Shown here: in pieces, positions 253 through 19,820 of the stretch
Layout: the number at the start of each line of letters is the position of its first letter
Position numbering within the stretch: the first letter of the stretch is position 1
Assembly (NCBI GenBank): GCA_913757435.1
Contig: CAJYDM010000002.1
Coordinates: 1-64,000, forward strand
Length of the DNA stretch: 64,000 bases
Direction of reading: 5' to 3'
Source: Syntrophomonas sp. DTU019
Lineage (GTDB): Bacteria > Bacillota > Syntrophomonadia > Syntrophomonadales > Syntrophomonadaceae
Program-made: the position numbers and the translations under genes
The notes under the pieces: generated by a model
What the model was told of the DNA's origin: nothing
Databases searched by the model: none
Seen by the model: the letters and a program-made list of their open reading frames with translations, nothing else

Positions 253-3200
253 TTAGCTTAAGTTAGAGCACAGATAACGGTAAATGATGACCGCAGTCTC
301 AGCCCGGCTCAGGGATCTGCTCCCTGCGAAGCTGCCATCCGGGTATCCAGTCATCAGTCCGGTGTGGTGCATGTAGGCCACTGCTTCCCTGGCCCAATCC
401 GGAACCAACTCGCTGTCCGCATAAAGCAAGGCTGCCTCATTGGACAGCGAATTTTCACCGCCTAGATTTAGCAGAATCACTGCGGCTTCATAGCGGCTGA
501 TGGATTTACCAGGCCTGAAAGTACCGTCGGCATAGCCACTTAGAAGCTTGTTTTGGCAGGCGCAGCGGACTGCGGGTTCGAACCAGTCCACCGCACTCAC
601 GTCTGTGAACATGCAACGGGGCCCATTTTCATCGGGCTGTAATCCAGCCGCAGTCACCACCAGGCGTACAAACTCAGCCCGGGTTATGTTCCTGCCAGGT
701 TCGAAACCCAAGCCGGTTCCGGAAATAATATTCTGGCCGGCCAGAATCTCAATGGCATCCTTAGCCCAGGCATAGTCTTGGATATCGTCAAATCCCCGTC
801 GCGGGGGCTTTTGTACGACCGCGAAGGCAGTGAAGTGATCGATCTGGAAAACCACCAGACCGGTTTCAAGATCGATCACTGCCGGCAGGGGGACCCATTG
901 ACCGGTTTCTTCATCGAACCAGGCCGGTACCAGAGCATCTATATCAATATCCGCAGTGAGGGCTACCTTGATGCCTATGGTAACCGGGTGCGCAAAGACG
1001 GTACCGGAGGGGCCGAACTCATATACCGAGGAACCTAGTCTCACCGCGTATTGTGAAGGTTGTTCACCTGAGGGAAGTTCTTTTATGGAAATCTCTACCG
1101 GCTGGCTGAGGGCCTGCTCAGGAACCATCAACACAATTTCCTGGTCGCCAATATGCATTGCTTCTTCACCGGCCAGGGCCTTAAGATCAACCTGGTTGGC
1201 GGCCAGCAAGCCTTGCAAGGCTTCAGCCTCCGCCGGGGTCATTTTATTCTCGGCATTAAGCGGTTTTAGCGATAGAGTAGCATCGATTTGAGCAGTGTAT
1301 TGCTGCAAGGCGGTTTTCGTCTCTTCATCCGAGGCGTTCATTTCCGGCAGCTTGTTTAGGGTTTCAGATTTGGTGAGTTCATCCCAGCTAGGGCCTTCAA
1401 ACCGGGCATCAGTACTGTACCACCAGATGATCCGGTCTCCTTCTGAAACCTTATGATCCTTTGCCGTACACGAGGGGGAGATGCCATTAACACTGTAGCA
1501 CCAGCCGTTTTGCCCGGAATTGCGCTGGCCGTCAATCTCAATTACAAAGCCTTCTGCATCCGGTGAAAAACTCCAGCTCAAACCGGTGGCGTCCAGTGCC
1601 GCCATTGCGCTGAAGCCGAACGGTCCGTCTTTTTCAATGGTGACTTCTTGAGGGGCAAACAGCAGTTCCCCTTCTGCTCCCACCACAGCTATCTTAACCT
1701 TGATAGTATCGGAACTGCCTGGACTGCCGCCACTTCCGCCACTTCCCGGGCCGGTCGGGGAGTCGCCAGCCCCGCCCAAATCAAATTTTTTATCAAACAT
1801 CAGCAAGGCTATCAAGCTATCGGCGGTCCCGGCCAGATTGCCTATTTTGCCAGAATCCTCCTGCTGGCTGATCAAGTAGAGAATGGGATTGTTTTCGCTG
1901 TCGCCCCAATCACCGGCACATGGATTGATATCCAAATCTACTAGTGCTTTGACAACTTCTGCGGTAGACCAGATATTGGCTGTAGCACTCATGCCATCCG
2001 TGAAGGAACCGTCATCATTCCGTTGCGTTGCCAGGTAGGATAGGGCCTTGGTGACGGGTTCGCTGTCTTTCGGTTGCCCGAGGATCAACAAGGCTCTTAT
2101 AGCGAAAGTGGTCATATCAGGTGAGGTAGGACCGCCGACCACCCAGCTAAAGCCTCCATTGCTGCTGGCTGAATTCAACAGCCATTGCCGGGCTGCCAGA
2201 GCATTGGGTATTTCGACTCCAGCTTCATCAAGTGCTGTAATTGCCCAGTAATGGGTGTGTACGTAGTCTTCTTCGCCGCTATCGCCGAAATGCCCATTGG
2301 CATCCTGCAATGCGATTAAATCGGCCACCAGGTTATGACCAGCAAAATCAGCCGGGTCACCACCGCCAGCTTTTATTTCCATAATGGTCTGAGCCAGCTG
2401 AGCAGTTGTATTTATATTTGCATCATAATCAGCGAGCAATTGCTGCTGTAAATAATCCAGGTCGGTTTTACCGTTGCGGGTAATCGTAGTAAGATCAACC
2501 CCAGCCTTATATAAGGCCAGGGCTGATTTTGGCCCTAGCTTGCCGCTATCTTCCTGTTGGTCGATCAAATATGCTACCGCCTTAGCGATGCTGGAGCTCA
2601 CCGTGGGTGTATCTGACGCTGATGCAGTAACTGTCAGCGGAATGCCCGCAGTTCTCAGCAATCTTGGATAGCTGCCAGGCACATCCTTGCTCACCCGCAA
2701 GGTGTAGCTTCCAGCCTCAAGACCTGTCATAACCGCTTCACCTTGTGCATTGGTGGTGTATTCTACACCGTCACAGCTTACTGTGGCACCTTCCACCAGA
2801 ACTTCAACCGTCTGCGCGGTATTCCAGTCATAATAGCTGGAGCTTACGGTGACGGTTATCTCCTCGCCGCTCCGCGGTTCTTTCGGGCTGATGGATACTT
2901 CCGGAATCAAGGTGTCAGGCGGGTACATCCCGTAGTAAAATACCAGCTCATCCCCGTCCTGCACCTCGTAGTCGGCTGCACCCACTTCAGCCATGGCCCC
3001 GTTCACCAAAAACAGCCAGCCGTCAAAACCCCCGAATTGACCGGCTTCCTCCCCGGCTATCGAGTTTATATACTTGCCATAGCCGCTTTCGGTAATTTCA
3101 TAGGCTATATTCCCCTCGTTCAGGGCCTGTTCCAGGGCGTCCAAGGCGCTCGCCGGCGCTCCGCTGGACACGACGTTGACTTCGCCATCAAACAGATTCT

Positions 3201-3942
3201 GGCTGCTGCCCTCTACCCTTACGGCAACGGTCTTGCCTGCAGGCAATGATACTGTCAGCGGAATACCCGCAGTTCTTAGCAATCTCGGATAGCTGCCTGC
3301 CACATCCTTGCTCACCCGCAAGGTGTAGCTCCCAGCCTCAAGACCTGTTATAACCGCTTCACCCTGTGCATTGGTGGTGTATTCCACACCGTCACAGCTT
3401 ACTGTGGCACCTTCCACCAGAACTTCAACCGTCTGTGAACTGTTCCAGTCATAATAGCTGGAGCTTACGGTAACAGTAATCTCCTCGCCGCTCTGAGGTT
3501 CTTCCTGACTGATGGACACTTCCGGAATCAGGGTGTCAGGTGGATACATCCCGTAGTAAAACACCAGTTCATCCCCGTCCTGCACCTCGTAGTCGGCTGC
3601 ACCCACTTCGGCCATGGCCCCGTTCACTAAAAACAGCCAGCCGTCAAAGCCTCCGAATTGACCGGCTTCCTCCCCATCTATCGAGTTTATGTACTTGCCA
3701 TAGCCGCCTTCGATAATTTCATAGGCGATATTCTCCTCGTTCAGGGCCTGTTCCAGAGCGTCCAAGGCGCTCGCTGGCGCTCCGCTGGACTCGACGTTGA
3801 CTTCGCCATCAAACAGATTCTGACTGCTGCCTTCCACCCTGATAGCAACGCTTATATTGTCACTCCCAGCGGCAGGTAGCACTGCCATGGTACACAGCAG
3901 CACTGCAACTATAGTAAATAAAACCACTATTTGTCTTCGCAT
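253..3942 (-). CDS. S-layer-anchored protein with three DUF4430 domains and an alpha/alpha barrel; likely surface cobalamin binder
   Basis: This 1229-residue exported protein has a signal peptide (about 1-26). Two near-identical units follow (residues 33-231 and 240-438), each a DUF4430 (transcobalamin beta-domain-like) module plus an Ig-like module. Next come a prenyltransferase-type alpha/alpha repeat region (about 445-725), a Gly/Ser linker, a third DUF4430 (about 745-850), a region ending in a ZU5-like stretch, and three SLH domains (about 1050-1225) that would bind cell-wall polymers. An alpha/alpha barrel followed by DUF4430 is the architecture of mammalian intrinsic factor and transcobalamin. 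A cobalamin riboswitch sits in the leader, so cobalamin capture at the cell surface is a strong inference. The start has AGGAG 9 nt upstream. The domains are read from sequence; the ligand is inferred. Confidence 0.85.
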   Translation of the reverse strand: MRRQIVVLFTIVAVLLCTMAVLPAAGSDNISVAIRVEGSSQNLFDGEVNVESSGAPASALDALEQALNEENIAYEIIEGGYGKYINSIDGEEAGQFGGFDGWLFLVNGAMAEVGAADYEVQDGDELVFYYGMYPPDTLIPEVSISQEEPQSGEEITVTVSSSYYDWNSSQTVEVLVEGATVSCDGVEYTTNAQGEAVITGLEAGSYTLRVSKDVAGSYPRLLRTAGIPLTVSLPAGKTVAVRVEGSSQNLFDGEVNVVSSGAPASALDALEQALNEGNIAYEITESGYGKYINSIAGEEAGQFGGFDGWLFLVNGAMAEVGAADYEVQDGDELVFYYGMYPPDTLIPEVSISPKEPRSGEEITVTVSSSYYDWNTAQTVEVLVEGATVSCDGVEYTTNAQGEAVMTGLEAGSYTLRVSKDVPGSYPRLLRTAGIPLTVTASASDTPTVSSSIAKAVAYLIDQQEDSGKLGPKSALALYKAGVDLTTITRNGKTDLDYLQQQLLADYDANINTTAQLAQTIMEIKAGGGDPADFAGHNLVADLIALQDANGHFGDSGEEDYVHTHYWAITALDEAGVEIPNALAARQWLLNSASSNGGFSWVVGGPTSPDMTTFAIRALLILGQPKDSEPVTKALSYLATQRNDDGSFTDGMSATANIWSTAEVVKALVDLDINPCAGDWGDSENNPILYLISQQEDSGKIGNLAGTADSLIALLMFDKKFDLGGAGDSPTGPGSGGSGGSPGSSDTIKVKIAVVGAEGELLFAPQEVTIEKDGPFGFSAMAALDATGLSWSFSPDAEGFVIEIDGQRNSGQNGWCYSVNGISPSCTAKDHKVSEGDRIIWWYSTDARFEGPSWDELTKSETLNKLPEMNASDEETKTALQQYTAQIDATLSLKPLNAENKMTPAEAEALQGLLAANQVDLKALAGEEAMHIGDQEIVLMVPEQALSQPVEISIKELPSGEQPSQYAVRLGSSVYEFGPSGTVFAHPVTIGIKVALTADIDIDALVPAWFDEETGQWVPLPAVIDLETGLVVFQIDHFTAFAVVQKPPRRGFDDIQDYAWAKDAIEILAGQNIISGTGLGFEPGRNITRAEFVRLVVTAAGLQPDENGPRCMFTDVSAVDWFEPAVRCACQNKLLSGYADGTFRPGKSISRYEAAVILLNLGGENSLSNEAALLYADSELVPDWAREAVAYMHHTGLMTGYPDGSFAGSRSLSRAETAVIIYRYLCSNLS
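2629..3225 (-). repeat. Intragenic direct repeat, unit 2 of DUF4430-Ig module
   Basis: This is the second copy of a 207-codon (621-bp period) direct repeat inside the S-layer protein gene, residues 240-438. It is nearly identical in nucleotide sequence to unit 1 at 3250-3846, so the duplication is recent or kept uniform by recombination. Units like this can expand or contract. Confidence 0.85.
3250..3846 (-). repeat. Intragenic direct repeat, unit 1 of DUF4430-Ig module
   Basis: This is the first copy of the 621-bp-period repeat (residues 33-231) in the S-layer protein gene. It starts with the AIRVEGSSQNLFDGE motif and ends with RTAGIPLTV. Differences from unit 2 are scattered single substitutions. 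Confidence 0.85.
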
Positions 3943-4030
3943 TTTGCTCGTCTCCTCTTCCCTTGGAATTCAGCGCATGACCTATTTATTAGTGAGATCA
4001 CTTGCCTGTAATTGTCTAAGTCTATAAATA

Positions 4031-4066
4031 TAAAAAGCCTCAACTTCTCCTATGAAAAGTTGAGGC
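4031..4066 (-). terminator. Rho-independent terminator of the riboswitch leader
   Basis: On the minus strand a GCCTCAACTT/AGTTGAGGC stem with a short loop is followed by TTTTTA. It sits between the cobalamin aptamer and the S-layer gene, as expected for a transcription-attenuation expression platform. Confidence 0.75.
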
Positions 4067-4120
4067 AACATAACCCGTACGCACCTATCCCCCTTTCCTT
4101 GCGAAGGTTGATTATGCAGT

Positions 4121-4285
4121 ACATTGGGCAGGTCTCCTGACTTGCAGTTTTGCATCTTCCCCCCTTCCCAGATCTGATCTGACCCAGTGGTATATGGGGA
4201 AGCATACCTGCTTACAGTGGCGCGACCGTTCAGGATTTTCACCTGATTCCCTATTATCCTCATACAGAGGCACCCAGTGCACACA
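4121..4285 (-). ncRNA. Cobalamin (AdoCbl) riboswitch
   Basis: Read on the minus strand, the segment has the class hallmarks in order: GGGTGCC near the 5' end, AGGGAATCAGGTG followed by AAAATCCTGA, the GCCACTG B12-box core followed by TAAGCAGG, and the closing CAAGTCAGGAGACCTGCC. It lies about 180 nt upstream of the S-layer DUF4430 gene with a terminator hairpin between them. Known biology of this class is repression of cobalamin uptake or synthesis genes when AdoCbl is bound. The 5' boundary is approximate. Confidence 0.93.
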
Positions 4286-18669: not shown

Positions 18670-19820
18670 CTACATCCCTGAATTGGAGCGCAAGACCACC
18701 ACATAAGTCCCTTCATGGTTTTGGGCGTATACCTGATCATAGCCGCCTTCCCAAAGCCCAATTTTCATAATAAACTCATATTTTCCGTCTCCATTCAGAT
18801 CGGCGATATCTGTCAGTTTCAGGGTATGGCAATGGTTGATATCCCTAATGTCATACTGTCCCCCGCTGAAGGTGACCGGGCCCGCTTTAAAACGGCGCAG
18901 ATCATTGTGCAGGATCTGTGTCTTCCCGTCATCATCCTGATAGAGAAGGACGGAAAATGTTCCTACATCATCCTTGGTCCCCTCTCCTTCAATGATAGGC
19001 CAGTAGTCGTTTTCTTCCGGATTGGGGTGGTTGGCCGCAAATACATACTCTTCTCTGCCTTCGCCATCAAAATCGCCTTTGAAGCCTTGTATAAATTTCG
19101 AAACGGTATTGCCCATATCGGCATCAGCAAACAGCTTTTTCAACGTACTCTCCGCCTCGGTTGTGGCGGGCACATTCTTTTCATATCAGACAGGAAGTTG
19201 ATAGAAGCTGAGTTGGTCACCAAAATGCCTTCATTCTGCTGATAGCTCCAATTCCCTCCGCTGGGGAAATAGGCCCAGAATGAATATTTAGGGATCTGCA
19301 GGCCGCTAAGCTCATTTCCCAGAGTGGTAGGCAGCGAAAATATCCGGTGACTGGCGTGGCTGTTTCCCTCAAAACGATAGAGCTCACCATATTGGGAAAA
19401 CTTCTCCTTGATCCCCTCCGACTCAAAGCTGCCCAGGCCAAAGTCCTCTTCGGTCAGCCAGATGATACTCTTGGCATCGCCTAAAAGAGCTTGATCCTTG
19501 TAAACATGGTATTCCGGTACTGCCAGCAGGTCTTTGGCATAAAAATCGGAGGCATTCCCCGTTCCAGCTCTGTAATTTCCGCTGGTATCACTTAGGCTGT
19601 GCCAACCGCTTTTGTCATAACTGCCCAAGAGAAGCCCACCGGTGAAGTAGTAGGCTGTCTGCTCCCCGCTTTGATCTTTAGTTTCCTAGTCAGGCTCTTT
19701 TTCACCGCTTGGCTGATTCACCGGGACATCCTTTCCTGCCGGGTTCTTCTGCTCACCCTGGCAGGCGCTTAATGAAAACACCATCATGAGGATCATTATG
19801 CATAATATAAAACGTTTCAT
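18670..19820 (-). pseudogene. Secreted lipoprotein with in-frame UAG and a frameshift
   Basis: A lipoprotein signal peptide (MKRFILCIMILMMVFSLSAC, Cys20) starts at 19820. Codon 45 is TAG (19686-19688) in the context EKEPD-stop-ETKDQSGEQ, as expected if a CAG codon mutated. The frame then continues through TGGLLLGSYDKSGWHSLSD to about 19175, where a lost base in an A-run shifts the frame. The next frame resumes NVPATTEAESTLKKLF and ends with GDFDGEGREEYVFAANHP and DLNGDGKYEFIMKIGLWEGG, FG-GAP/VCBS-like calcium-binding motifs. The family is otherwise unknown. Two lesions argue for a pseudogene. Confidence 0.75.

Follow-up and report, generated by a model that had tools for sequence, protein, structure and literature searches.

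A predicted surface corrinoid-capture operon with an intrinsic-factor-like protein and a CbrT-type importer in Syntrophomonas

We analyzed a 64-kb stretch of DNA from Syntrophomonas sp. DTU019 (the window: positions 1 to 64,000 of contig CAJYDM010000002.1, called C2 below) that begins, on the reverse strand, with a cobalamin riboswitch, the gene of a large surface protein and the start of a lipoprotein gene. These elements most likely belong to a cobalamin-repressed operon of monoderm bacteria in which corrinoids are captured at the cell surface and relayed to an importer of the ECF-CbrT type, the surface protein being predicted to bind cobalamin. Very probably, such bacteria take hold of B12 on the cell surface by means of a two-part clamp like that of the animal carriers intrinsic factor, transcobalamin and haptocorrin.

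The surface protein and the animal B12 carriers

A preliminary description, made from the letters of this DNA alone, had read the surface protein as an alpha/alpha barrel followed by a DUF4430 domain, with two extra DUF4430-Ig units (Ig, immunoglobulin-like) and three SLH repeats. This was borne out by Pfam, which found DUF4430 three times in the 1,229 residues (E 5e-45 over the whole protein) and gave weak but consistent alpha/alpha-toroid matches at about aa 560-675 (Prenyltrans 8e-5, SQHop_cyclase_C 2e-4), and by the fold of the barrel in an AlphaFold2 model. The canonical cobalamin riboswitch and terminator that it had placed before the gene were also recovered, as a full-length RF00174 match of 119.8 bits (gathering score 31.5 bits), the sole Rfam match within the window, and as a perfect 13-bp stem with a T-run that is a hairpin in the predicted fold of the leader. 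The lipoprotein gene expected to follow starts at position 140 of the reverse strand. Since the window begins at base 1 of contig C2 (the source genome comprises 17 contigs, 3.2 Mb), the operon is cut there, and the lipobox and the DUF4430 domain of the lipoprotein (E 2e-14) were taken from a near-identical relative, L011 (L011:13746-14954).

Structure prediction with AlphaFold2 was run solely on sequences of the window and of one relative. DUF4430 no. 2 was modelled at pLDDT 83, and in a Foldseek search of the PDB with this model the three carriers took the first 15 places (4.9e-7 to 3.8e-6). All 19 matches at E <=2e-5 were one of these three carriers or 3u7z, and the next fold followed at 1.5e-2. 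With VIA, the same model reached Z 15.7 with haptocorrin, 14.7 with intrinsic factor and ~14 (13.7) with transcobalamin (1.7-2.1 A over 99-103 residues), the best unrelated fold standing at Z 9.4. Comparison of a DUF4430 profile with 177,635 PDB chains gave just ten matches; haptocorrin (E 0.23) was one of them and intrinsic factor (E 1.1) another, which is suggestive and not significant alone. Together, the models strongly suggest that the DUF4430 fold is that of the beta domain of the three carriers. A bacterial DUF4430-like fold is already present in the PDB as 3u7z, a putative metal-binding protein of Ruminococcus gnavus (RUMGNA_00854; Z 12.4 over 97 residues), which, unlike the surface protein, is a single domain and was deposited without a known ligand role.

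When the barrel was modelled together with DUF4430 no. 3 (barrel mostly at pLDDT 85-93, DUF4430 part unreliable), squalene-hopene cyclases, aligned over the barrel only, came first among the PDB matches (2.8e-7), intrinsic factor ranked third (2e-6, 397 columns), and transcobalamin and haptocorrin came after it. The best two-domain matches of this model were these three carriers. The surface protein and the carriers are alike in having an alpha/alpha barrel and then a DUF4430/transcobalamin-beta domain, with a beta fold that agrees within ~2 A. They differ in that the bacterial protein is anchored to the wall by SLH repeats, while the carriers are soluble and taken up by receptor endocytosis, and in that the former has two further DUF4430-Ig units and a barrel that is not recognisable as PF01122. 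The isolated beta domain of human transcobalamin binds cobalamin, and the two domains of that protein come together only when cobalamin is present (PMC5599065). A clamp in two parts is plausible on these grounds, also where the barrel and DUF4430-SLH parts are encoded by separate genes.

Profiles of the barrel with DUF4430 searched against PDB chains gave mostly Ig and cyclase matches and did not reach transcobalamin or intrinsic factor over the barrel. The three carriers were absent among the 50 best VIA matches listed for the barrel model, a result that is not evidence against a relation. In the models, the barrel has the right fold but is not specifically a transcobalamin or intrinsic factor barrel, and the domain order is that of the carriers. 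The earlier description of the protein as a look-alike of these carriers can be kept for the protein as a whole, while common descent is evidenced for the DUF4430 half alone, the barrel sequence having no transcobalamin or intrinsic factor match. A tentative idea, which we hold to be somewhat improbable as it stands, is that the two-domain clamps of the animal carriers and of these bacterial proteins have a common ancestor. The carriers would then derive from a bacterial protein that captured B12 at the surface, gene transfer being one conceivable route, and the shared arrangement would not be due to convergence.

A CbrT-type importer in the same operon

In the relative L011, also a Syntrophomonas sp. 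DTU019 genome, the surface protein is 98% identical and the whole locus lies on a single contig. The order there is riboswitch, SLH protein, DUF4430 lipoprotein, EcfT, double ECF ATPase, barrel-SLH protein and ECF S component, with btuC-, btuD- and btuF-like genes after the S component. The EcfT and EcfA/A' motor genes are adjacent. In the source genome, contig C9 carries at its end the S component (C9:63494-64198) and the final part of a truncated barrel-SLH gene.

A profile built from 20 S components of these operons and compared with all PDB chains had only two matches, 6fnp_A at E 6.9e-26 and 4hzu_S at 0.0029. The first is ECF-CbrT of Lactobacillus delbrueckii, for which binding of cobalamin (~9 nM) and of cobinamide (~36 nM) and transport of both have been shown (PMC5997447). 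By sequence, the S component belongs with the CbrT family, an experimentally proven B12 S component, which connects the operon with corrinoids on grounds other than the riboswitch. The operon and ECF-CbrT (6FNP) share the S component (E 7e-26), EcfT and two ATPase domains. They differ in that the operon has its own dedicated ECF genes, with a fused EcfAA, surface DUF4430 and barrel proteins and a cobalamin riboswitch, while CbrT of L. delbrueckii uses a shared common ECF module (PMC5997447).

Two in-frame joins of genes were found among the relatives. One complete genome of the phylum encodes the CbrT-like S component and a barrel-SLH protein as a single fusion of 737 aa (L100:4613-6826, reverse strand), the joint being a signal-anchor-like stretch, which links the importer directly with the surface protein. 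At L056:4985-6352 (forward strand), the DUF4430 lipoprotein is joined in frame to EcfT in a protein of 421 aa that is without parts of both, so a deletion or a fault of the assembly could account for this join.

The EcfT of L011 is of the CbiQ type (E 3e-18), and one could propose that the EcfT and ECF ATPases take up Co2+ or a corrinoid precursor such as cobinamide. The CbiQ match itself is weak (52 bits, cut-off 111.8). Cobalt importers are often under cobalamin riboswitches, and CbrT takes cobinamide too (PMC5997447). Against this proposal, the S component is CbrT-like and has no Pfam match to CbiM or CbiN. We know of no cobalt importer that uses domains like those of intrinsic factor or transcobalamin. 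We regard a cobalt or precursor system as improbable, its cobinamide version lying close to corrinoid capture; a cobalt importer proper was rejected because CbiM and CbiN are absent from the Pfam matches of the S component.

In the family of the source genome, DUF4430 was present in 40 of the 54 genomes and RF00174 in 45, and 33 of the 46 DUF4430 clusters had a cobalamin riboswitch on the same strand 0.3-2.8 kb upstream, several others beginning at a contig end. In the phylum sample, DUF4430 occurred in 51 of 159 genomes, 46 of them outside the family, and 38 of the 58 clusters outside the family (33 genomes) had a riboswitch inside the cluster or <=6 kb upstream. Family and phylum taken together, 71 of 104 DUF4430 clusters lie behind a cobalamin riboswitch, where chance would place one near ~0.5% of clusters, as estimated from ~4 riboswitches per ~2.6 Mb genome. 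At 20 annotated loci outside the family, the barrel preceded DUF4430 in one protein in all 20, EcfT lay next to it at 18 and a CbrT-like S component at 17, usually in the same gene order; as these loci were picked from the riboswitch-linked ones, the operon frequency describes that subset. Riboswitch, barrel-DUF4430-SLH protein, lipoprotein and ECF genes are kept together across many families of the phylum. The barrel and DUF4430-SLH parts are separate neighbouring genes in L043, L046, L068, L074 and L082. The viral contigs scanned yielded no relative.

The number and order of DUF4430 domains differ among relatives. This variation would suit another view of the operon, in which it imports B12 but the SLH protein does not itself bind the vitamin and merely spans the wall, as a scaffold or adhesin to which the importer docks, its DUF4430 and barrel parts serving as protein-interaction modules; SLH and Ig modules are common in scaffolds, and the barrel fold is found in many proteins of other function. 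However, what nearly all relatives retain is the pair of modules that makes up the corrinoid clamp in animals, in the same order, and DUF4430 matches precisely the corrinoid-binding beta domains. We consider such a scaffold unlikely, if the least unlikely of the other explanations.

Probable corrinoid capture and the evidence against it

Corrinoid capture at the surface could work as follows. When cobalamin is scarce, the riboswitch would let transcription run past the terminator, as the RNA family and the terminator point to an OFF-switch by cobalamin. The SLH-anchored barrel and the DUF4430 domain that follows it would then close on the corrinoid in the way that intrinsic factor and transcobalamin do with their alpha and beta domains, a step suggested by the fold and the domain order. 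The extra DUF4430-Ig units might be further half-sites or spacers, which is a guess. The DUF4430 lipoprotein, anchored in the membrane, and the second barrel protein would receive the corrinoid and hand it on to the CbrT-type S component, in a relay whose order we infer, and the EcfT-EcfAA motor would drive import through the S component across the membrane. The system may accept corrinoids generally rather than vitamin B12 alone.

Several observations weigh against this interpretation. The barrel alone is nearest to squalene-hopene cyclase (Z 24.2, 263 aligned, 2.9 A; VIA), with prenyltransferases also near, its profile matched cyclases and prenyltransferases and not transcobalamin or intrinsic factor, and PF01122 was not matched by it in Pfam at E up to 1 or, in a second search, at E up to 0.1. 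DUF4430 no. 3, which stands at the intrinsic factor position, was modelled at pLDDT <50, the confident model being that of no. 2, and the cobalamin-contact residues could not be mapped. EcfT and EcfA were not found when the source assembly was searched. Finally, the source genome encodes cobT and a long cbi/cob operon, and a separate cobalamin riboswitch precedes each of the two. The absence of EcfT and EcfA fits, but does not prove, a gap between the ends of contigs C2 and C9 into which they would fall, and at the break inside the operon about 3 kb are probably missing from the assembly. With cobalamin biosynthesis of its own, the cell would use uptake as salvage, sparing synthesis or recapturing leaked cofactor, and not as a strict need.

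The closeness of the barrel to squalene-hopene cyclases, its top neighbours in both fold and sequence, could also mean that it is a terpene-cyclase-like enzyme on the cell surface, unrelated to corrinoids. DxDD is kept in the second barrel protein of 11 relatives. That motif is lacking in the barrel of the window and in 22 of the 24 other barrel-DUF4430 units, occurring as DWDD in 2 of the 25, and none of them has a thioester motif; moreover, the proteins are exported and lie within a B12-importer operon under a B12 riboswitch. We give such an enzyme very little credence. A thioester protein was likewise rejected, the motif being absent from the barrel of the window and the 24 other units. The second barrel protein of the operon (L011:17704-19263 and its counterparts in 10 relatives) keeps DxDD followed by T, though exported. 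Class II terpene cyclases have DxDD followed by T in their active site as well.

The claim of a Gram-positive surface B12 capture system, with which the preliminary description ended, is largely supported by the CbrT-like S component, the DUF4430 fold, the two-domain matches of the barrel-DUF4430 model, the conserved operon and the L100 fusion. CbrT, the three animal carriers, SLH anchors and the riboswitch were already known, and what would be new is an ECF B12 importer with intrinsic-factor-like surface capture. We found no published account of DUF4430 in bacterial B12 uptake or of such a system, in a search that covered mainly openly accessible literature, so that prior notice is possible. 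A further comparison is with BtuG, whose folds and cell envelope differ from those of the operon and whose partner is the outer-membrane protein BtuB; to our knowledge, BtuG has no intrinsic-factor-like domains. BtuG and related surface lipoproteins of gut Bacteroides capture B12 at the exposed cell surface and feed an importer (PMC6143338), as the proteins of the operon are predicted to do.

Capture of scarce B12 outside the membrane is poorly known in Gram-positive anaerobes, which have nothing equivalent to BtuB of the outer membrane and the surface proteins that work with it. The operon would be a widespread answer, as the distribution of DUF4430 in the phylum (51 of 159 genomes) indicates, and would assign a role to DUF4430, so far a domain of unknown function. 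Bacterial proteins could then be used to test where the human B12 carriers come from, and the system is also relevant to how B12 is exchanged within syntrophic and methanogenic communities.

Features of the locus and further observations

Table 1 Features at the beginning of the window, in the order of the reverse strand.
Feature	Position	Strand	Basis
Cobalamin riboswitch aptamer RF00174	4110..4292	-	119.8 bits, E 1.8e-29, model 1-189 of 189
Intrinsic terminator, GCCTCAACTTTTCATAGGAGAAGTTGAGGC then TTTTTATATT	4037..4066	-	Perfect 13-bp stem and T-run, after the aptamer and before the start codon
SLH-anchored barrel-DUF4430 surface protein, 1,229 aa, ATG start	253..3942	-	Open reading frame, Pfam; orthologue 98% identical in L011
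Putative Sec-type signal peptide, aa 1-27 (approximate)	3862..3942	-	Read off the sequence: MRRQIVVLFTIVAVLLCTMAVLPAAGS
DUF4430 no. 1, aa 34-131	3550..3843	-	PF14478 match 3550-3768, E 6e-16
Ig-like domain 1, aa 143-216	3295..3516	-	Pfam CarboxypepD_reg / Ig-fold matches
DUF4430 no. 2, aa 241-338	2929..3222	-	PF14478 E 1e-15; AlphaFold2 pLDDT 83; predicted fold of carrier beta domain
Ig-like domain 2, aa 347-424	2671..2904	-	Pfam Ig-fold matches
Alpha/alpha barrel, aa 454-714	1801..2583	-	AlphaFold2 pLDDT mostly 85-93; VIA Z 24.2 to squalene-hopene cyclase
DUF4430 no. 3, aa 751-843, directly 3' of barrel (intrinsic factor/transcobalamin position)	1414..1692	-	PF14478 E 1e-12
ZU5-like conserved region, aa 884-1044	811..1293	-	Weak Pfam ZU5 (match at aa 929-991); kept in most relatives
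Three SLH repeats, aa 1051-1224, wall anchor	271..792	-	PF00395 E 2e-31, three stretches
DUF4430 lipoprotein gene, 5' part, cut by contig end	1..140	-	Protein start same as L011:13746-14954; lipobox LAVSGC

The source genome encodes a polysaccharide pyruvyl transferase (CsaB-like, PF04230, E 2e-48), and a search of it for Omp85 gave no match, which together fit SLH anchoring in a monoderm wall. An outer-membrane porin with SLH repeats was rejected, as Omp85 is absent. The term S-layer protein, used for the protein earlier, stands here in the sense of SLH anchoring, as read from the sequence, and does not imply the formation of a lattice. In one relative (L101:1020-4406, reverse strand), the SLH repeats are replaced by a C-terminal domain that by eye resembles a copper-amine-oxidase N-like wall domain, so the wall anchor may be exchangeable.

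DUF4430-Ig units 1 and 2 (2626-3849, reverse strand) are tandem copies of a 621-bp stretch, 92% identical as DNA and 93.5% identical as protein, and the codons that differ between them comprise 31 synonymous and 13 amino-acid differences. From this comparison, the two units would have arisen by recent tandem duplication or been homogenised by gene conversion.

Other cobalamin riboswitches were also seen. At L008:5862-6051 and 18792-18963 they precede cobT and a cbiA-cbiD-cbi/cob operon, respectively, with pieces of a group II intron and transposase-like open reading frames between the two. Another one (L010:12495-12665, reverse strand, the same as G000:C2:263494-263664) has unusual target genes, a zinc alcohol-dehydrogenase-like gene and a gene for a glycosyl transferase of family 3 (anthranilate phosphoribosyltransferase-like).

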